Of a stretch of DNA of 64,000 nucleotides, positions 12,455 to 33,519 are shown in pieces. Both the position numbers and the translations under genes were made by a program. The notes below the pieces were generated by a model. It worked only from the letters and a program-made list of their open reading frames with translations. It had not been told where the DNA came from and did not search any database. This stretch comes from Lachnospiraceae bacterium AB2028 (GTDB taxonomy: Bacteria > Bacillota > Clostridia > Lachnospirales > Lachnospiraceae). Numbering within the stretch: position 1 is the stretch's first letter; every line of letters begins with the position of its first letter. The stretch is taken from positions 222,913 through 286,912 of the forward strand of contig JHYJ01000003.1 of assembly GCA_000621425.1 (NCBI GenBank), written 5' to 3'.

Positions 12455-13201
12455 TTAGTGTACTTTCTCGAATTCAAAAGTATTAAGGAATTTCTTTGCC
12501 CTGTCTGTCTTAGGCTCTGTAAAAAAGGATGCAGGATCGGAATCCTCCACTATGCTGCCACCGTCGAGAAAAATCACCCTGTCAGCTATCGCTCTTGCAA
12601 AGGCCATTTCGTGAGTAACTATCAGCATGGTTCTCTGTTGCTTTGCAAGATCAAGGATTACATCCAGTACTTCCCTTACCATCTCAGGATCAAGAGCGGC
12701 GGTCACTTCATCAAAAAGCAATATCTCCGGATGCATTATGAGTGCCCTTACTATCGCCACTCTCTGTTTCTGTCCGCCGGAAAGCTGTCTCGGATAGTTG
12801 GATACTTTTGAAAGAAGGCCCACTCTGTCAAGAAGCTGCTCTGCCTCCTTTTTTACTTCATCCTTTTTTCTTTTCTGCACTTTTATCGGTGCCAGCATAA
12901 CATTTTCAAGAATGGTTTTATGCGGAAAGAGGTCATAGCTCTGGAACACCATGCCGATCTTTTCACGGTACTTTGACTTCTTATCTACCAGCGGGTTGAT
13001 GATATTATCCTCAAGTATCACCTTTCCTTCCTGAATATCCTCAAGACCGTTTATGCAGCGAAGAAGCGTACTTTTTCCACAGCCGGATGGACCAACTACC
13101 ACAAGCACTTCTCCCTTTTTTACGGAAAGATTTATATCATCCAGTATCGTAAGGTTATCAAATGATTTCTTTAAATGTTCTATCTTAAGTATCTCTTCCA
13201 T
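12455..13201 (-). CDS. Polar amino acid ABC transporter ATPase (GlnQ/TcyC type)
   Basis: ATPase subunit that drives amino acid import with the two permeases encoded just upstream. Walker A VGPSGCGKSTLL, Q-loop VFQSYDLFPHKT, signature LSGGQKQRVAIVRAL, Walker B ILLFDEVTAALD and the switch His in VTHEMAFARA are all intact. Length (248 residues from the ATG at 13201) is normal for the HisP/GlnQ group. That ATG follows GGAGGTTTACC; an upstream in-frame ATG at 13234 lacks such a site. It is the last gene of the six-gene uptake operon, so it should energise the polar-amino-acid half of the system, while MetN serves the methionine-type half. Confidence 0.93.
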   Translation of the reverse strand: MEEILKIEHLKKSFDNLTILDDINLSVKKGEVLVVVGPSGCGKSTLLRCINGLEDIQEGKVILEDNIINPLVDKKSKYREKIGMVFQSYDLFPHKTILENVMLAPIKVQKRKKDEVKKEAEQLLDRVGLLSKVSNYPRQLSGGQKQRVAIVRALIMHPEILLFDEVTAALDPEMVREVLDVILDLAKQQRTMLIVTHEMAFARAIADRVIFLDGGSIVEDSDPASFFTEPKTDRAKKFLNTFEFEKVH

Positions 13202-13268
13202 GGTAAACCTCCATGCATGTCCTATGTAATCCAACCATTGACCAGTGGCTCATAATAATTCCAATCGA

Positions 13269-13937
13269 TCAGTTTTCCCAGCGTTTCTCCAGATATTTGG
13301 AAAAACAGCTTATTGGCCAGCACGCCAGAAAATAAAGCAGAAAGATGGTCGCAAAGATTCCGAATGCCGCTCCCGGCGAAGTCTTTCTGTTAGCCTCTAT
13401 GATCTGCTGTCCGGTTTTTAACACTTCAACAATTCCTATCATCATGATAAGCGATGTTGTTTTTATCATCCTCGTTATCAGGTTTATTGAAAGCGGCAAC
13501 AGGCGCCTTGCCACCTGCGGGATGATTATGTAGATATAGGTCTGCAGCCTGGTAAAACCTAGAGCCTTGCTGCTTTCATACTGTATAACAGGTATGCTTA
13601 AGAGACTTCCTCTCACAAGATCCGCCATTTCAGCTGTCCCCCAGAATGAAAACACTATAATAGAAGAAAGTTCAGCAGATATATTTTTCCCTGTCAGCTT
13701 CGTAAAACCAAAAAATACAATGAACAACAGTACTAACTGTGGCATTATCCTAACAATCTCCAGATAAACCCTTGTCACCGCATTTATCAGGGGCTTTTTC
13801 TGTGACATCAGCATTCCTACGATTATTCCGAGGACTATGCTGATCACAACGGATATAAGGCTTATCCGCATTGCAACGCCAAGTCCCTCCAGAAGCCTGA
13901 GCATATTTTTTCCTTTTAATAAAACCTCAAAACCCAT
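13269..13937 (-). CDS. Polar amino acid ABC transporter permease (HisM type) 2
   Basis: A 222-residue inner-membrane permease of the His/Glu/Gln/Arg class. It starts GFEVLLKGKNMLRLLEGLG, has several hydrophobic helices and the ATPase-contact EAA loop ESSKALGFTRLQTYIYIIIPQ (residues about 140-160). It pairs with the permease encoded four bases upstream (13942-14604) to form a heterodimeric channel. The downstream ATPase is 67 bases away. Confidence 0.9.
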   Translation of the reverse strand: MGFEVLLKGKNMLRLLEGLGVAMRISLISVVISIVLGIIVGMLMSQKKPLINAVTRVYLEIVRIMPQLVLLFIVFFGFTKLTGKNISAELSSIIVFSFWGTAEMADLVRGSLLSIPVIQYESSKALGFTRLQTYIYIIIPQVARRLLPLSINLITRMIKTTSLIMMIGIVEVLKTGQQIIEANRKTSPGAAFGIFATIFLLYFLACWPISCFSKYLEKRWEN

Positions 13938-13941
13938 AAGA

Positions 13942-14604
13942 CTATATATCTCCGTATATCTTAAATCTTGCCTTCTTTTCAGCCACCGTTCCTAAAATCG
14001 AAACCGGGAGCAGCATTATGATATAAAAGATGACAAGAAGGAACAGACTCTCCGTTGTATCATAATAAAGCCCGATAAGATCCTTTGCCGTAAACATAAG
14101 ATCCATAAGGCTTATTGCCGAAAAAACACTTGTTTCTTTTAAAAGAAAAATAATATTTGCAACTATAGCAGGAACACTCATTGCAAAAGCATGCGGAAGT
14201 ATCACCAGCCTGAAAAGCTGTGGCTTTGTCATTCCCAGGGACAGTGCGCTTTCAGTCTGTATCTTAGGAACCGATTCCAGTCCGCTCCGTATGCTTTCCG
14301 TCATATAACTTCCGCCAAGAAGTCCCAAACCTATGATGCCGCATATTTCTGCAGATACCCTTATTCCCAGTATAGGCAGTCCATAATACATAAAGAAAAG
14401 CTGAACCAGAAGCGGGGTATTCCTGAAAAGCTCCACATACACCTTAACTGCTGCAGAAAGAACCGGTATTTTAAAATATAAAATAAACGCACATATAAGT
14501 CCTATCGCAAAAGACAAAGCTATACCAAACCAGCCGGTTTTTACGGTCAGTAAAAATGCCTCTGCAAATAAAGGAATGTAAGATTTTATTACCTCAAAAT
14601 CCAT
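13942..14604 (-). CDS. Polar amino acid ABC transporter permease (HisM type) 1
   Basis: A 220-residue membrane protein with the HisM-family region LFRNTPLLVQLFFMYYGLP (about residues 60-78) and the EAA loop TESALSLGMTKPQLFRLVILP (about 136-156) that docks to the ATPase. It follows metI after only three bases and precedes the second permease by four, so all are co-transcribed. Together with its partner permease and the GlnQ-type ATPase it should form an importer for cystine or another polar amino acid. The substrate specificity is inferred from the cystine-type binding domain encoded upstream. Confidence 0.9.
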   Translation of the reverse strand: MDFEVIKSYIPLFAEAFLLTVKTGWFGIALSFAIGLICAFILYFKIPVLSAAVKVYVELFRNTPLLVQLFFMYYGLPILGIRVSAEICGIIGLGLLGGSYMTESIRSGLESVPKIQTESALSLGMTKPQLFRLVILPHAFAMSVPAIVANIIFLLKETSVFSAISLMDLMFTAKDLIGLYYDTTESLFLLVIFYIIMLLPVSILGTVAEKKARFKIYGDI

Positions 14605-14607
14605 ATA

Positions 14608-15270
14608 TTAATGTTTCCTATGATCTATGAGCCGTGACAGAGTTGCACCTATATTCTGTATCAGCTGGAAAATAACTATAAGCAGCACCACCGTCACTAT
14701 CATTATGTCTGTCTGCCATCTGTAATATCCATATCTTACGGCTATATCACCGAGTCCGCCGCCGCCTACTGTTCCGGACATTGCCGAATATCCGAGCAGT
14801 ATACCGGTCGTGATGGTAGCGCCGGTAAGGAGTGAAACCCTTGCTTCCACTAAAAGAACTTTGAAAATTATCTGCAGGTTGCTTGCACCCATTGCCTTCG
14901 CCGCCTCGATAACTCCTGCATCCACTTCATTAAGTGAAGATTCCACCACCCTTGCTATATAAGGTGCGGCACAGATTACCAGTGGTACTATAGTCGCTGT
15001 CGAACCGTAACTTTTTCCCACCACAAGCCTTGTGAAAGGTATCAGAAGTATCAACAGTATCAGGAAAGGCACGCTTCGTACTATGTTGCAGATAAAATCT
15101 CCGATGCCATAAATAATTCTATTCGGCTTCAGGCCATCCTTCCTGGTAACATTTAAAACTATTCCCATGGGAAGTCCCAGAACATATCCAAAAAATGTTG
15201 ATACAAGGGTCATGTAAAGGGTATCCTTTATACCTACCAGTATCATCTCTATAACTTTCTGATCAAACAT
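14608..15270 (-). CDS. metI: Methionine-type ABC transporter permease MetI
   Basis: A 220-residue, five-helix permease of the MetI family (D-/L-methionine uptake). Family features include the conserved NIVRSVPFLILLILLIPFTR (residues about 62-81), the EAA loop GVIEAAKAMGASNLQIIFKV and SAMSGTVGGGGLGDIAVRYGY near the C-terminus, a hallmark of MetI. It overlaps metN by eight bases, as in canonical metNI operons. Here the usual third gene, metQ, is absent as a separate ORF; its domain is fused into the lipoprotein encoded upstream. Confidence 0.95.
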   Translation of the reverse strand: MFDQKVIEMILVGIKDTLYMTLVSTFFGYVLGLPMGIVLNVTRKDGLKPNRIIYGIGDFICNIVRSVPFLILLILLIPFTRLVVGKSYGSTATIVPLVICAAPYIARVVESSLNEVDAGVIEAAKAMGASNLQIIFKVLLVEARVSLLTGATITTGILLGYSAMSGTVGGGGLGDIAVRYGYYRWQTDIMIVTVVLLIVIFQLIQNIGATLSRLIDHRKH

Positions 15271-16276
15271 CTTCCTTCACCTCCGTTACAGCCAGATTCC
15301 TTTCCTTAAGCCAGCTTATCATCTGTTCCTGCAGGTCATCTCCTTCAGGCATGCCCAGTATCATTTCTCCCCTTGCTTTTCCGCCTACATTCCTGGTATC
15401 GGCTTTCAGTATGTTTACCGGTGCATTAAATGTAAGTATCAAATTGGCCACTACAGGCTCATATGCAGAATTTTCAGAGAAGACTATACGTACTTTCCTT
15501 TCAGCCTCCAGTATGTCTAAAGGCGAATATCTTATCTTGGTATCAAGGATGAGTTCCTTTGCAGCATCTGATTTAGGCGCCTCAAATATTTCATCTACTA
15601 AACCTTCTTCCACCAGGTTACCGTTGTCGATAATTGCAACCTTCTTACATATGCTTGTCACAACTGACATCTGATGGGTTATTATCACTATGGTTATTCC
15701 CAGCTTTTCGTTGATTTCTTTTAAAAGCTGAAGTATTGATTCAGTAGTCTGTGGATCAAGCGCGCTGGTTGCCTCATCGCAGAGAAGTATATCCGGCTCA
15801 GTCGCAAGTGCCCTTGCAATAGCCACCCTCTGTTTCTGTCCGCCGGAAAGCTGTGAAGGATATGCCTTTTCTTTTTCTTCCAGGTTTACTGTCTTAAGAA
15901 GCTCTTTAGCCTTCTGCCTTGCTTCCTTTTTCTTTACGCCTGCAAGTTCCAGCGGAAAGCAGACATTATCGGTAACATTCTTCTGTTCCAGCAGGTTGAA
16001 GCTCTGGAATATCATTCCGATCTTGGCACGTTTCTTACGCAGTTCTTTTTCACTAAGCTTTGCAAGATCCACACCTTCGATAAACACCTGACCTTCCGTA
16101 GGTCTTTCAAGGAAATTGATAGTCCTTACAAGCGTACTCTTTCCTGCGCCGGACATACCGATTATTCCGAATATATCACCTTTTTCAATAGAAAGATTGA
16201 TATTGTTTAAGGCCGTAACATTTAAGTCTTTGGCCTTAAAGGTTTTTGTTAGATTTTTAATTTCTATCTCGCTCAT
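15263..16276 (-). CDS. metN: Methionine ABC transporter ATPase MetN with NIL domain
   Basis: An ATPase with Walker A GMSGAGKSTLV, Q-loop IFQSFNLLEQKN, signature LSGGQKQRVAIARALATEP, Walker B LLCDEATSALD and switch His in ITHQMSVV. After residue 255 comes a NIL domain (VRIVFSENSAYEPVVANLIL and NILKADTRNVGGK), the C-terminal module that binds methionine and inhibits MetNI when the cytoplasmic pool is high. The 337-residue length is normal. Its ATG at 16276 follows CAGGTGACAAA. It is separated from the binding-protein gene by a 215-base gap with two large hairpins. Confidence 0.95.
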   Translation of the reverse strand: MSEIEIKNLTKTFKAKDLNVTALNNINLSIEKGDIFGIIGMSGAGKSTLVRTINFLERPTEGQVFIEGVDLAKLSEKELRKKRAKIGMIFQSFNLLEQKNVTDNVCFPLELAGVKKKEARQKAKELLKTVNLEEKEKAYPSQLSGGQKQRVAIARALATEPDILLCDEATSALDPQTTESILQLLKEINEKLGITIVIITHQMSVVTSICKKVAIIDNGNLVEEGLVDEIFEAPKSDAAKELILDTKIRYSPLDILEAERKVRIVFSENSAYEPVVANLILTFNAPVNILKADTRNVGGKARGEMILGMPEGDDLQEQMISWLKERNLAVTEVKEDV

Positions 16277-16491: not shown

Positions 16492-18174
16492 TTACTTGTC
16501 GTAGAATACTACTGCTCCGTCATAAGTCTCTTCGATGAACTGCTGGATCTCTGCAGATCTTAATACAGCTACCAGGGCTTTGATCTTGTCTGAAGACTCG
16601 TTGCCGTCATATACAGCTACGATGTTAACATATGTCTCAGCTGCGATTGAATCGCTTGACTCATAAGCTATTGAGTCCTGACCTACAGAGTAGCCTGCCT
16701 CAAGTGCATAGTTACCGTTAAGTACAACATATGCTACTTCATCAACAACTCTTGCTACCTGCGCTGCCTCAAGCTCTACGAACTCGATGTTGTAAGGATT
16801 CTCTGTGATATCGTTAACAGTTGCTGTAAGTCCTACGCCATCTGCAAGTGTAAGTAAACCGTTGTCCTGAAGAAGAAGGAGTGCTCTTGCTTCGTTTGTA
16901 GTATCGTTAGGTATTGCGATTGAATCTCCGTCAGCTATCTCATCAAGACTGCTCTTTGTTCCGGGATAGATTCCGAAGGGCTCATAGTGGATGTCACCTG
17001 CATCTACAAGATGTGTACCCTGCTCTTCGTTGAAGCTGTCAAGATAAGGAACATGCTGGAAATAATTTGCATCAAACTCACCGGACTCTACTACAAGGTT
17101 GGGCTGTACATAATCATCAAACTCTGTAACTTCAAGTGTGTATCCGTAATCATCAAGGATCTCAGCTGCCTTAGCAAGTATCTCTGCATGAGGTACAGGT
17201 GAAGCTGCTACTGTGATAACCTCGCCGTTACCGGGTACGATATCAAGAGCATCTGCAGTATCTGCAACATCTGCTGTATCGGCAGCTGCTCCGCCTACAA
17301 CACCGCCTTCAACAACAAGCGTATCTTCATAATCTGCACCGTAAGTATCAAGAAGTGTTGCCTCGTAGTCAGCATGGAAGAAATTCTCGTTACCAAGTGT
17401 CTTGATCTCGTCATTCAGCCAGTCAAGCAGTGTAGTATTTCCCTTTGATACAGCGGGTGCAATTGTGTCCTGACTTCCAAGCTCAGGAATACCTACAACA
17501 TATCCTTCGTTCTCAAGTGCATATGCGATAACCTCTGTGTTGTCATTTGCCCATGCAACTCCTGTTCCGTTTTCAAAAGATGTCTTTGCTGTTGCATAAG
17601 TATCAAACTTCTGCAACTTGATGTCCGGATAGTTTTCCTCAAGGTATGTCTCAGCAGTTGTACCGGAGATTACGATCACCTGGTCATCTGCACCGATCTG
17701 GTCAAGGCTTGTGATAACATTGGATTCAGGTGAAACAACACCAAGTGCTACATTCATATAAGGAAGAGCAAAATCAACTTTCTCTGCTCTCTCTGCTGTT
17801 ACTGTAAAGTTTGCAAGTACTATATCAACCTTGCCGGTTTCGAGATATTCAACTCTGCTTGCAGCTTCTGTTGATACATAGTTTATATTTACTCCAAGAT
17901 CCTGTCCGATCCTCTCAGCGAAGTAAACATCATATCCCTGATAGTCACCGTTCTCATCAACATATCCGAAAGGGTTCTTATCGGAAAATACTCCGATGTT
18001 GATGGTTCCGTCTGCCTTGATCTCATCAAGCGTTCTGTATACTTTACTCTCATCATTGCCTGAAGCATTCACAGTGCCGGGATCTGCAGCATTTTCGCAT
18101 CCTGTAAGTGAAGCCAGTCCAAGGCTCGCAGTCAGGACGCCTGTAAGTAAGTTTCTGAATAGTTTCTTTTTCAT
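16492..18174 (-). CDS. Fused substrate-binding lipoprotein: cystine-type (SBP_bac_3) domain plus MetQ/NlpA domain
   Basis: A 560-residue lipoprotein with signal peptide and lipobox SLTGC (Cys26). Residues about 42-285 form a family-3 amino-acid-binding domain (INIGVFSDKNPFGYVDENG, VDIVLANFTVTAERAEKVDF, the ligand-site region of cystine/polar amino acid receptors). After an Ala/Asp/Thr-rich linker (about 288-316), residues 318-560 form a NlpA/MetQ domain (ITVAASPVPHAEIL, YFQHVPYLDSFNEEQG, IAIPNDTTNEARALLLLQ). Each domain alone is normally a whole protein. Since the operon then encodes both MetNI and a polar-amino-acid transporter, one receptor probably feeds two importers. GAGGAGAAGAACT precedes the ATG at 18174. 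Confidence 0.92.
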   Translation of the reverse strand: MKKKLFRNLLTGVLTASLGLASLTGCENAADPGTVNASGNDESKVYRTLDEIKADGTINIGVFSDKNPFGYVDENGDYQGYDVYFAERIGQDLGVNINYVSTEAASRVEYLETGKVDIVLANFTVTAERAEKVDFALPYMNVALGVVSPESNVITSLDQIGADDQVIVISGTTAETYLEENYPDIKLQKFDTYATAKTSFENGTGVAWANDNTEVIAYALENEGYVVGIPELGSQDTIAPAVSKGNTTLLDWLNDEIKTLGNENFFHADYEATLLDTYGADYEDTLVVEGGVVGGAAADTADVADTADALDIVPGNGEVITVAASPVPHAEILAKAAEILDDYGYTLEVTEFDDYVQPNLVVESGEFDANYFQHVPYLDSFNEEQGTHLVDAGDIHYEPFGIYPGTKSSLDEIADGDSIAIPNDTTNEARALLLLQDNGLLTLADGVGLTATVNDITENPYNIEFVELEAAQVARVVDEVAYVVLNGNYALEAGYSVGQDSIAYESSDSIAAETYVNIVAVYDGNESSDKIKALVAVLRSAEIQQFIEETYDGAVVFYDK

Positions 18175-18235
18175 AGTTCTTCTCCTCTTTTTTTATTGAT
18201 ATAAATATTCGATTCTTCCTAAAGTTTTTTAATTA

Positions 18236-18380
18236 ACCGGGCATTTATAATTCTGCATTAAAAATGCCCGGTGATTTTTACTCCCGGGCAAATGGAATAC
18301 TTAAATCCGAAATGACGAATCTCCGTATTTAGGCGCATGACAGATGAGCCAAACGCCCGACCATAATACCTGCCCGGGAG
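18236..18380 (-). promoter_or_regulatory. Transcription-attenuator-like leader with three mutually exclusive stems
   Basis: Read on the minus strand, segment 1 (CTCCCGGGCA, 18380-18371, inside the leader-peptide gene at codons 20-23) pairs perfectly with segment 2 (TGCCCGGGAG, 18290-18281). Segment 2 can instead pair with segment 3 (TGCCCGG, 18290-18284, with CCGGGCA, 18271-18265). Segment 3 can instead pair with segment 4 in an 11-base perfect stem (ACCGGGCATTT, 18272-18262, with AAATGCCCGGT, 18246-18236). That is the 1:2, 2:3, 3:4 layout of amino-acid attenuators. The 3:4 hairpin is followed by TAATTAAAAAAC rather than a U run, so termination may be weak or the stem may act in another way. 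Confidence 0.65.
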
Positions 18381-18439
18381 CACAGCATTCGACACATACA
18401 CCAACAGCAACCGTTTGTCTTTACTACATTTGCGCTCAT
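18329..18439 (-). CDS. Cys-rich leader peptide (36 aa)
   Basis: A 36-codon ORF with an excellent ribosome binding site (AAAGGAGGATGACGAT before the ATG at 18439). The peptide begins MSANVVKTNGCCWCMCRMLC: Cys at codons 11, 12, 14, 16, 20 and 35, six of 36 residues, far above background. It lies between a good promoter and the fused binding-protein gene and its Cys codons sit just ahead of the first attenuator segment. I infer that ribosome speed over these codons reports Cys-tRNA charging, so cystine/methionine uptake is raised when cysteine is scarce. It is too small to be a working Cys-rich protein in any family I know. Confidence 0.75.
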   Translation of the reverse strand: MSANVVKTNGCCWCMCRMLCSRAGIMVGRLAHLSCA

Positions 18440-18489
18440 ATCGTCATCCTCCTTTTTAAGATTCATAAGGCCGTGCCTTACAGATGCTT

Positions 18490-18518
18490 ATGTTACAATC
18501 ATTCGCCTATCAAGTCAA
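18490..18518 (-). promoter_or_regulatory. Sigma-A-type promoter of the leader and uptake operon
   Basis: On the minus strand TTGACT (18518-18513) and TAACAT (18495-18490) are separated by exactly 17 bases. Transcription would begin near 18483, giving a leader of about 310 nt before the binding-protein start, long enough to hold the leader peptide and the alternative stems. Confidence 0.7.
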
Positions 18519-18702
18519 TAGGTTTAAGAATAGGTATATTTAATCATCGGCGATAAGTTTTGCTTATCACGCATTTTTACTGCTTTTTTATACTCCAACT
18601 GTATTCTTTGAAAAAATAGCAAACAATAATAACTAATTTTATTATTCCTGGTTCTTTGTGAAAGTATAGTTATGAAAAAATCTGTCGACAGACAAATTTG
18701 AA

Positions 18703-21195
18703 TTACTTTGTCTTCAGTGCAGTATTAGACGCATGCTGTAATATAAAGAAACAGATAATATAGAGCGCAACTCCAACAATTGTCATGATCAGACCTGTCC
18801 TAAGATATGGTGTATGATATGAAAGTATCACATCATTATTTCCTACACTTAAAGGAATCGCGATAAATCCAAGATCTGCGCGGATAAGCTGTGTCTCTTC
18901 TCCGTTTACTGTAGCAGACCAGCCTTCATCATAAGAAATTGGCAGAAATAGGATTGTGTCAGTATCTGTACTTACTGTACATGAATATGTTCCGTTTGAT
19001 GACTTATATACTTCAATGTGTCCGGATTTTTCAATCATACCTCTACCGTTCATATCCTGATCAACTGACAGCCCACTGTCTTCTATCTCTTTAACAGAGT
19101 TTATTTTTATCTCATCCATATTCTGTTCTATAATTTCTATAACAGCATCTTCAAGCACAACATATCGGTCAAGTTCATCCCTGAATGATAATTTGTCATC
19201 CAATCCCAAAATATCAGATTCTCTCACAGCACCAGTATAAAGTATTCCAAAACCTGTCATAGCATTATTCTTATATATATCAATACCCATATTTGCTCCG
19301 TCTTCTATTAGATCAAATGCGCACTGCTCAAAATTCTCCGATGATCTAACCACTCCATCCTTATCAAGCACATACCTAATTCCCAGCAGCTCATTCATAA
19401 TGTCATTTGCCGGATCCTGTTGATATACAACATACTTTTCTCCCAGCTCCCCTCCGCCATAGACTGCCTCTGGCCAGAATGCCCTGAAGAATGTCTGCAC
19501 ATGCTTGTTGTATGTCCCGATATAATATGACACTCCGGGATAATCCCATGTCATGCTTCCGTTGAAATATGTTCCCCCTGAATATGTTTTTTCTATGCGG
19601 TAATAATCCTCATCTGTAGATTTCAACTGTTCCACCGCTTGTGCAGTATCTTCTCCCGCGTATTCATTGTTATTAAGAACTTCTTTTGTAAGTGCCACCC
19701 TATTGTTCAGCGTAACAGAATTATCCGACACAATATCCAGCGCTGACAGCACCAGTATTACAGGAATTCCGTACTTTAGTATATAACCCTTAATCTTTCC
19801 TGCTCCCATCAGTCTGCTACAGGCCACAATCACCGCAGAAAGAATTATCATACCAGCTTTAACATACTTCAGATGCATGAAAATGAAATTACCGGCAGAA
19901 ACTGGGACAGAATCCTTCAGAATAAACACAACTGATACAAGCGATAGTAATGTAAGTACCACAACCGCCGGTTTTGATAGCTCGCTTCTGTTTGAAACCA
20001 CGTATGCAAGTGCATAAACAAAAACAGGGAGCAATACAAACGAAAATCTATAAGATATAGCCGTACACATATTGAATACCCAGGGAATAACCGGTGTAAA
20101 TACGGTATACACACCAAGCAGAATAGCAATAACCATTAAAAGTTTCTTTTTGCTCTTTATCGTTAAATCCACAAGCATCGTAAGCGTGAAGGGCAGTACC
20201 AGACATGTACAGAAAAGCTGTATGTTTTCGTAGTAATTCATTATGCCTTCATAAGTTACTGAGTCTCCCTGCAGATTGTTAGAAAAAAACCTCAAAAACA
20301 GGGATACTAAAGTATCTTTATCATAAAATGTCATGAAGACATCTGTGAACCTGTCAAATACTCCTCCATCGGTAACTCTGTCCGTAACAGTTGTCAGCTG
20401 ATAAACTGCAGGTACAGATATAACAGAAGAGATAAGGCCCGCAATAACAGCGGCAGACCAGAAACCGCCAAACTTATGCATTTTATCTTTAAGTTTTCCA
20501 TTAGCTATAAACAGACGGAATAGCAGGTATACCGCAACTGCCAGCCCTATCATATATGAAACATACACTGAGAACATAAGGCAAAGTGCAACTGCCAGTA
20601 CAAGGTACTTTAACATCTTTTTTTCGCGAAAACTTTTTTCAAGAAGGAAGAATATCAGCATCAAAAACACGCATGCTGTCGAGAAAAAGAAATGCTGTCC
20701 CCATAAACAAATGAAACCGCTTAAGGAACAGGCATAAGCGCCAAATACTGCAGCATCTTTTGACAGCCTAAAGCATCTCAAAAAGAAAAGAGCAAAAAGA
20801 CCACATAGATAACACCGAACCATCAACATAAGAGTTATGGAATAAAAAGCAGTCTCCCTCATTCCCAGTGAAAATAGTATTTCTGTAGGGATATTAAAGA
20901 AATCCATCGTCCAGGGCTGAAGATTTATCATATCCAGACCAAGCCCTATCCTATCATTCCAGAAAGATCCATTACCAAGCGACATACCCATAAGGTTCAT
21001 ATATGGAACATACTGGGCAGATGTATCACTTCCTACATCAAAAAACACAGGATAAGCATTTCCGCGCAGATAAACGCGAAAACAGGCAACAAGAGTTGCG
21101 ATGCTTAAAACAGAGTAAAAAAGTACCGGATGTGAAACCAGGTATTGATATGCTTTATATATAACAGATGGTTTTCTGCTAACTGGCTTATTCAT
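18703..21195 (-). CDS. YfhO-family polytopic membrane glycosyltransferase
   Basis: An 830-residue protein with about 13 hydrophobic helices and a large extracytoplasmic region before the last one (residues about 520-800), the layout of YfhO/GT-C-like proteins. The first outer loop reads YPVFFDVGSDTSAQYVPYMN, with the acidic residues that in the family follow the first helix. YfhO proteins transfer sugars from lipid carriers to cell-wall polymers such as teichoic acids in several Firmicutes. The substrate here is unknown. Its start lies 30 bases after the stop of the GT2 gene, so they are probably one transcript for surface glycan decoration. The 162 bases after its own stop are AT-rich leader and promoter of the uptake operon. 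Confidence 0.85.
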   Translation of the reverse strand: MNKPVSRKPSVIYKAYQYLVSHPVLFYSVLSIATLVACFRVYLRGNAYPVFFDVGSDTSAQYVPYMNLMGMSLGNGSFWNDRIGLGLDMINLQPWTMDFFNIPTEILFSLGMRETAFYSITLMLMVRCYLCGLFALFFLRCFRLSKDAAVFGAYACSLSGFICLWGQHFFFSTACVFLMLIFFLLEKSFREKKMLKYLVLAVALCLMFSVYVSYMIGLAVAVYLLFRLFIANGKLKDKMHKFGGFWSAAVIAGLISSVISVPAVYQLTTVTDRVTDGGVFDRFTDVFMTFYDKDTLVSLFLRFFSNNLQGDSVTYEGIMNYYENIQLFCTCLVLPFTLTMLVDLTIKSKKKLLMVIAILLGVYTVFTPVIPWVFNMCTAISYRFSFVLLPVFVYALAYVVSNRSELSKPAVVVLTLLSLVSVVFILKDSVPVSAGNFIFMHLKYVKAGMIILSAVIVACSRLMGAGKIKGYILKYGIPVILVLSALDIVSDNSVTLNNRVALTKEVLNNNEYAGEDTAQAVEQLKSTDEDYYRIEKTYSGGTYFNGSMTWDYPGVSYYIGTYNKHVQTFFRAFWPEAVYGGGELGEKYVVYQQDPANDIMNELLGIRYVLDKDGVVRSSENFEQCAFDLIEDGANMGIDIYKNNAMTGFGILYTGAVRESDILGLDDKLSFRDELDRYVVLEDAVIEIIEQNMDEIKINSVKEIEDSGLSVDQDMNGRGMIEKSGHIEVYKSSNGTYSCTVSTDTDTILFLPISYDEGWSATVNGEETQLIRADLGFIAIPLSVGNNDVILSYHTPYLRTGLIMTIVGVALYIICFFILQHASNTALKTK

Positions 21196-33312: not shown

Positions 33313-33519
33313 GTACAGCCTACTCTGTCGGTGGGGCCGTTCATTAAGCAGTTCTTGCGGAACTGCCAAAGTATATACCATCCGTCCGGGACCGTTCACA
33401 CGCTACATCCATGTAGCGTTGTTCACTCGGTCTGCCTTCCATGGCATCCCGTCCCTACTGGATATAAGCAGTTCCGAGAACTGCTAAATTCACTCTAACA
33501 CCGACAGCGAAGGCTGTAC
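33313..33519 (-). ncRNA. Structured 207-nt intercistronic element (candidate ncRNA or MITE)
   Basis: Outer arms GTACAGCC...GTCGGTG (33313-33333) and CACCGACA...GGCTGTAC (33499-33519) are inverted repeats matching at 19 of 21 bases. Inside are three perfect or near-perfect hairpins: GCAGTTC/GAACTGC (33348-33366), GCTACA/TGTAGC (33402-33417) and GCAGTTC/GAACTGC again (33468-33484). The first and third share the flanking TAAGCAGTTC...CTGC..AAA context, so they look duplicated. No ORF is supported. It sits between MBOAT and SGNH genes. A miniature transposable element with terminal inverted repeats is the alternative; I see no target-site duplication. The rest of the gap (33520-33619) contains ACACCGTT repeated twice. 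Confidence 0.5.

Follow-up and report, generated by a model that had tools for sequence, protein, structure and literature searches.

What controls the apparent six-gene operon that opens with a fused binding protein gene in this window (the whole 64,000-nucleotide stretch of DNA analysed here, from Lachnospiraceae bacterium AB2028), and what is the role of the short, cysteine-rich reading frame that precedes it? The operon combines a MetNI-type and a TcyBN-type transporter with a fused SBP family 3–MetQ/NlpA binding protein. An earlier note on this DNA called it a cystine/methionine uptake operon, which stands at the level of family resemblance: the MetI-like permease scores over its subfamily cut-off, the other two permeases score over the general model TIGR01726 and none of the operon proteins reaches an NCBIfam equivalog cut-off for cystine uptake. 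The same note placed a cysteine-codon attenuator in front of these genes, a claim that we find strongly supported: the cysteine run and the stems, together with a setting among sulfur amino acid genes, are conserved in many genomes. On the evidence of sequence comparison and folding models, the element is very probably a ribosome-mediated transcription attenuator sensing charged tRNA-Cys, and the operon is most likely switched on when charged cysteine tRNA runs short. The anatomy of the attenuator (Table 1), its conservation, the covariation of its antiterminator, the U-run terminators of its relatives and the sulfur amino acid genes downstream can all be read directly from the genomes.

Table 1. 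Coordinates of the attenuator, its promoter region and the genes downstream (window numbering).
Feature	Position	Strand	Remark
Candidate promoter TTGACT-17-TAACAT	18490..18518	minus	9/12 matches; TTGACA at equivalent place in L005-L009
Shine-Dalgarno AGGAGG of leader ORF	18448..18453	minus	8 nt 5' of ATG
Leader peptide ORF, 36 codons, MSANVVKTNGCCWCMCRMLCSRAGIMVGRLAHLSCA	18439-18329	minus	read from sequence
Segment 0, last Cys codon of run + CGA AUG C (UGUCGAAUGC)	18385..18394	minus	complementary to 18356-18348
Segment 1, antiterminator 5' arm (CUCCCGGGCA)	18371..18380	minus	14 nt after first base of Cys codon 16
Segment 1' (GCGUUUGGC), part of P2 5' arm and alternative partner of segment 0	18348..18356	minus	9/9 pairs with segment 0 in window
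Hairpin P2, hexaloop UCAUCU (loop 18347-18342, inside ORF)	18331..18358	minus	covariation
Hairpin P3, hexaloop UCAUUU (loop 18315-18310, after ORF)	18296..18329	minus	structural comparison
Segment 2 (UGCCCGGGAG), partner of 1 (antiterminator) or 3 (terminator)	18281..18290	minus	pairing, covariation with 1
Segment 3 (CCGGGCA) + U run UUUUU, 3' half of intrinsic terminator	18260..18271	minus	U runs at same place in L004-L009
Segment 4 (AAAUGCCCGGU), pairs with 18272-18262, 3' of U run	18236..18246	minus	strong in minority of relatives
First gene, fused binding protein (SBP family 3 domain + NlpA/MetQ domain)	16492..18174	minus	
Rest of apparent operon: MetN-like ATPase, MetI-like permease, two amino-acid-type permeases, TcyN/GlnQ-like ATPase	12455..16276	minus	

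The 36-codon reading frame with a strong ribosome binding site that had been claimed is present, as are its five cysteine codons within codons 11–20; a sixth lies at codon 35, giving cysteine at codons 11, 12, 14, 16, 20 and 35. Against a background of 56 cysteines among 4,234 residues (ten long window ORFs), the binomial probability of at least five cysteines per ten codons is near 1e-7, a figure to be read with the qualification that the ten-codon stretch was picked post hoc, after inspection. The promoter named in the earlier note is likewise found in the sequence; matches of such quality are not above chance (two found, 1.9 expected). In four orthologs (L005, L006, L007 and L009) the −35 element of the promoter region is overlapped by a near-palindrome, ACATANTATGT, which is a possible operator. 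A peptide search returned no match to the leader peptide in plasmids, and no NCBIfam model fits it.

All three pairings described previously, 1:2 (10 bp), 2:3 (7 bp) and 3:4 (11 bp), were found in the sequence, and the RNA from 18390 to 18230 has a better fold than shuffled versions of it (z −7.5; none of 200 as good). The trp/his-type four-segment layout that had been assigned to them is not borne out: segments 1 and 2 form the antiterminator, segments 2 and 3 form the intrinsic terminator, and 3:4 lies beyond the U run. Antiterminator and terminator are mutually exclusive, having segment 2 in common. In the window, the terminator stem pairs 18290–18284 with 18271–18265 and is followed directly on its 3' side by UUUUU at 18264–18260, so that the U tract reported as missing is in place; the doubt arose because 3:4 had been taken as the terminator, and it is gone once 2:3 has that role. 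This stem, of 7 bp with two further inner pairs (−15.2 kcal/mol), is shorter than those of the relatives, and a simple terminator scan allowing loops of 3–8 nt listed nothing in 18100–18720, a miss that is likely to reflect the 12-nt loop of 2:3, or the bulge that arises when the two inner pairs are included. In folding predictions for the free full-length RNA the antiterminator is favoured (−57.3 kcal/mol, versus −53.8 with the terminator enforced and −50.0 with a protector hairpin plus terminator); termination after release of the ribosome must therefore be kinetic or need such a protector. In some leaders (window 18272–18236; L002, L003, L008, L178, L193) segment 4 pairs strongly with segment 3, perhaps as a 5' stem of the read-through mRNA.

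A peptide search of 98 genomes matched 17 of them, the window's own included, at E ≤0.1. It provided eight orthologous leaders (L002–L009) besides that of the window, from eight further species of the same genus. Each precedes a binding protein gene of the type found in the window, the ORFs of these proteins being read over at least 419 residues and cut by the locus ends; L010–L020 (E ≥0.02) were taken to match by chance and set aside. Counted from its first base, the last cysteine codon of the run is 14 nt away from segment 1 in all nine orthologs, with no gap in this interval in any of the 58 rows of alignment A2, and segments 1 and 2 lie 87–92 nt apart in the nine leaders. L004–L009 have a 2:3 stem and then a U run (e.g. 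GCCUGGGAGUUUGAUCCCGGGCUUUUUU), and UUUU follows the 2:3 stem in L002 and L003; L008 is an exception in that 3:4 wins over 2:3 in a 48-nt fold.

When the nine leaders were aligned without structure, the antiterminator with P1b, P2 and P3 was 93.4% paired and seven of its 34 pairs had changed on both sides (0–3 in slid versions), the structure tested being that of a fold of one of the nine. On 58 model hits, in an alignment fitted to the covariance model and thus leaning towards its structure, 29 of the 34 pairs had changed on both sides and the covariation score was 0.394 (0.169 for shuffles, ≤0.068 for slid versions). In alignment A3, for which the search pattern had left one antiterminator pair free (R and Y), 89 of 89 leaders pair at this place: 77 G-C, 11 A-U, one G-U and no A-C. 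The pairs of the terminator vary little and include no changes on both sides; support for the terminator comes from the U run and from the U-G pair that it tolerates at the position where the antiterminator alternates between G-C and A-U. The check suggested in the earlier note, covariation of stems and conservation of cysteine codons in relatives, thus turned out in favour of the antiterminator and the cysteine run, and the terminator pairs showed no covariation.

The sequence CGAAUG occurs in 55 of the 58 rows of alignment A2. Among the matches listed from a pattern search, the codon immediately before CGA-AUG (−1) encodes cysteine in 69 of 80 leaders and another residue in 11; cysteine stands at −2 in 59, at −3 in 20 and at −8 in none. 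Cysteine codons were absent from the search pattern, which makes the counts at −1 and −2 independent of it, and both TGT and TGC are used at −1, −2 and −3. Of these same 80 listed, 75 have a Shine–Dalgarno sequence of at least four bases before the start codon and 77 have, under a lenient rule, a T run within 60 nt after segment 2. Sulfhydrylase-type leaders (e.g. L063, L075, L123, L178) show a further peculiarity, an Arg-Cys-stop end, found in 25 of 89 leaders (any last cysteine in 34 of 89); this terminal cysteine before the stop is a possible second sensing codon.

These observations suggest a mechanism in which the leader ORF would be translated while RNA polymerase is still within the leader. 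With Cys-tRNA in short supply, the ribosome would stop with a cysteine codon of the run (codons 11–16) in its A site, and at the last of these it would cover segment 0, its front edge ending just before segment 1. Because 14 nt separate the last cysteine codon of the run from segment 1, a ribosome stalled at that codon should leave segment 1 free to pair with newly made segment 2, forming the antiterminator, which would close over P2 and P3, preclude the terminator and let the uptake operon be transcribed. With ample Cys-tRNA, the ribosome would pass over segment 1, segment 2 would pair with segment 3 and transcription would end at the U run. We infer from sequence and folding models that the ribosome stalls, in which order the steps follow, that the operon responds to cysteine and with which sign.

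In a scan of ribosome positions, folding only the RNA ahead, an A site at the codon before CGA gave the antiterminator in 77 of 84 leaders and the terminator in seven, and two codons past CGA the terminator formed in 80 of 84; the window switches between CGA and AUG. The scan assumed a ribosome whose front edge lies 13 nt past the first base of its A-site codon and ignored the RNA behind the ribosome, so that its outcome largely follows from the covering of segment 1; five of the 89 leaders, which had no T run or were cut off, were dropped. Stalling at codon 20 of the window, a cysteine codon located at segment 1, would be expected to favour termination.

After departure of the ribosome, segment 0 (UGUCGAAUGC) quite possibly pairs with segment 1' and, as a protector, holds segment 1 back. 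Paired with the stretch between segments 1 and 2, segment 0 reaches a mean of −8.7 kcal/mol (−6.6 for shuffles); at the fixed place the value is −8.0, compared with −5.1 for the reversed segment and −4.1 for shuffles. The 0:1' pairing occupies 82.5% of cells in 89 leaders (24–58% when slid), and 63 of the 89 have at least seven of nine pairs. Its covariation is no higher than in shuffles, and segment 1 is hidden no better by the real 5' region than by a shuffled version (accessibility 0.358 versus 0.346; lower with the real region in 47 of 89 leaders). With a stalled ribosome, segment 1 is predicted to be more accessible (0.49 versus 0.36), a result of little weight, since a shuffled 5' region blocks equally well. 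Pairing of segment 1 (CCCRG) with the CCGGG stretch, as a possible second protector, fills 82.4% of cells in 89 leaders (20–60% when slid) and shows no covariation, with no matching U in the 11 rows where segment 1 has A. A pairing of CGAAUG with CAUUUG beside segment 2 was rejected because, judged by eye, it is not general in alignment A3.

How else might the same parts be read? In a trp/his-type attenuator, 1:2 would block 2:3 as antiterminator and 3:4 would be the terminator, which would make sense of the 11-bp 3:4 stem in the window, of its strength in L002, L003, L008 and L009 and of the pairing of segment 3 with the 60 nt from the U run on (mean −9.4 kcal/mol versus −7.5 for shuffles in 86 leaders, Wilcoxon p 6e-8, with 13 of the 86 at or under 1 in 50 shuffles). 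However, the window has no U run after 3:4, which is located past the U run of 2:3, the relatives have theirs after 2:3, and 3:4 is weak or absent in several orthologs; with strength in only some relatives, 3:4 was rejected as the terminator and we consider this layout very unlikely. Similarly small is the chance that the parts work with the opposite sign, a ribosome stalled at cysteine codons covering segment 1 and so provoking termination. Cysteine codon 20, present in the window, L002 and L003, does overlap the edge of segment 1, and L004 has a cysteine codon one place earlier; but the conserved run ends 14 nt before segment 1, beyond what we take to be the usual ribosome footprint, codons 19–20 are not cysteine in L005–L009, and starvation would then shut off uptake and synthesis genes.

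A metabolite- or protein-binding RNA, riboswitch-like and closed by 1:2, with an ORF that merely overlaps it, might be suspected from the complex fold and from two hairpins that share the hexaloop UCAUUU in the tcy-type copies (P2 in eight of nine leaders, the window copy alone having UCAUCU; P3, which is outside the ORF, in seven of nine). Against this, the hexaloops appear by eye not to be retained in sulfhydrylase-type rows, a cysteine-coding ORF is kept together with its start and Shine–Dalgarno sequence, and there is no Rfam match, and we consider such an RNA very unlikely. The conserved peptide motif CCRMxxS[RQ]A could instead point to a functional small cysteine-rich protein, for metal binding or as a peptide precursor, with incidental hairpins; yet the N-terminal part varies freely, the conserved part overlaps covarying paired RNA, no NCBIfam model matches and a U-run terminator stands before the next gene, so that we think this extremely improbable.

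The cysteine-codon attenuator that we prefer stands mostly before genes of the same amino acid, which encode sulfhydrylases or MetQ-type binding proteins. With the first long ORF taken mechanically as the gene, 80 loci from named species among the matches listed yielded 74 first downstream proteins (six loci had no called ORF): 39 fell in an O-acetylhomoserine/O-acetylserine sulfhydrylase cluster and 27 in a binding protein cluster. These were pooled with proteins from further genomes; in that analysis 11 of 110 loci, in which no core was recognised, were set aside, and 87 elements remained once repeats had been taken out. The 160 pooled downstream proteins, partly redundant through repeats between the two locus sets, include 80 that group with O-acetylhomoserine/O-acetylserine sulfhydrylase and 60 with MetQ-type binding proteins, along with four amino-acid permeases, four proteins resembling MetN, three cysK products and two apparent wrong-frame calls; four GST-like proteins, one M20 peptidase, one cyclase and one protein without assignment have no obvious role in cysteine metabolism. 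The representative of the sulfhydrylase cluster, which includes a few related PLP enzymes, scores over the TIGR01326 cut-off; only cluster representatives were scanned, the MetN-like ones excepted.

The window genome holds two copies of the element, the second before a sulfhydrylase-like and a cysK-like gene. Just after this sulfhydrylase–cysK pair (L243 3119–3388; G000:C11:42418–42687) lies a T-box match of 51.9 bits, below the family cut-off of 93, followed by a gene that presumably resembles anthranilate phosphoribosyltransferase; neighbouring amino acid operons may thus use different sensors.

Covariance model R1 matched 26 of 35 genomes of the genus (E ≤0.05), with up to five copies each, and 44 of 397 genomes of the family (E ≤0.01); in most genomes of the family sample the element was not detected. 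Model R2 matched 27 of 392 genomes in the order sample, 13 of 391 in that of the class and five of 398 in that of the phylum. The samples are nested and include the window genome, and the filters of the large searches were stricter and can overlook weak copies. Three of the phylum matches are from outside the class: in L240 and L241 a sulfhydrylase-like gene follows a leader with CCCRM or VCRM, and L242 was left unparsed. The window contains the exact pattern of CGAAUG, segment 1 and segment 2 a single time, and none of 100 shuffles contains it; across GTDB species genomes it matches at least 118 stretches. The titles of the 80 matches listed are from Clostridia or Bacillota, including Pseudobutyrivibrio xylanivorans DSM 14809. 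Judged by sequence, many gut and rumen bacteria carry the same putative switch in front of genes for sulfur amino acids.

Searches of Rfam gave no family match at the element (T-box, SAM or other riboswitches), only sub-threshold matches to unrelated families; elsewhere, the genome has five T-box matches, two of them over the family cut-off, and a TwoAYGGAY RNA match (RF01731, 88.4 bits) lies at window 33332–33500, minus strand. The trp/his-type ribosome-mediated transcription attenuators of Enterobacteria have a leader ORF with a run of regulatory codons and a 3:4 terminator. The present element shares with them the codon run and the choice between antiterminator and intrinsic terminator, and differs in its three-segment core, the lack of a 3:4 terminator and a free RNA predicted to prefer the antiterminator. 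Leaderless Cys-leader ORFs in mycobacteria are reportedly the subject of work by Canestrari in 2020, to go by its title. Actinobacterial cys leader peptides, as far as the available part of their description goes, carry cysteine-codon runs near the stop codon before cys genes, with no conserved hairpins or terminator found and Rho-dependence proposed (PMC1262725); cysteine-codon runs are common to both, whereas here there is a hairpin terminator and the run is not near the stop. The uORFC-8-2 motif of Rhodobacterales (alphaproteobacteria) resembles our element in its two tandem cysteine codons, stems and U-run terminator, and is set apart, by the description available, in having its cysteine codons inside the first stem and in lying upstream of cysS only (PMC8632094).

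Within the Firmicutes, leader-peptide attenuators were in 2010 described, in the portion of the account available, as nearly unknown, their work being done by T-boxes and riboswitches; that account has histidine leader peptides before hisS/hisZ of bacilli, which are attenuators of the same general kind as ours and concern histidine and aminoacyl-tRNA synthetase genes (PMC2965389). Ribosome-mediated attenuation in Listeria, another Firmicute, concerns branched-chain amino acid genes, according to the accessible text (PMC5864092). The word cysteine does not occur in the accessible part of a paper on 50 genomes (PMC11109978), and we found no report of the element in Clostridia in one open-access library, a search that covered few subscription papers and is no proof of absence.

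We tentatively propose that these leaders may belong to one family of cysteine attenuators, widespread in Clostridia and reaching into some neighbouring classes. In its unusually fixed motif (UGU CGA AUG N5 CUCCCRGGC), segment 0 would have a dual role, as last sensing codon and as a protector arm covered by the stalled ribosome, and the family could be a main means of cysteine sensing for uptake and sulfur assimilation in these anaerobes. A cysteine attenuator conserved in many Clostridia would account for the way cystine uptake and sulfhydrylation are controlled in rumen and gut anaerobes, give annotation a new RNA family and flag sulfur regulons in genomes that metagenomes alone have revealed.
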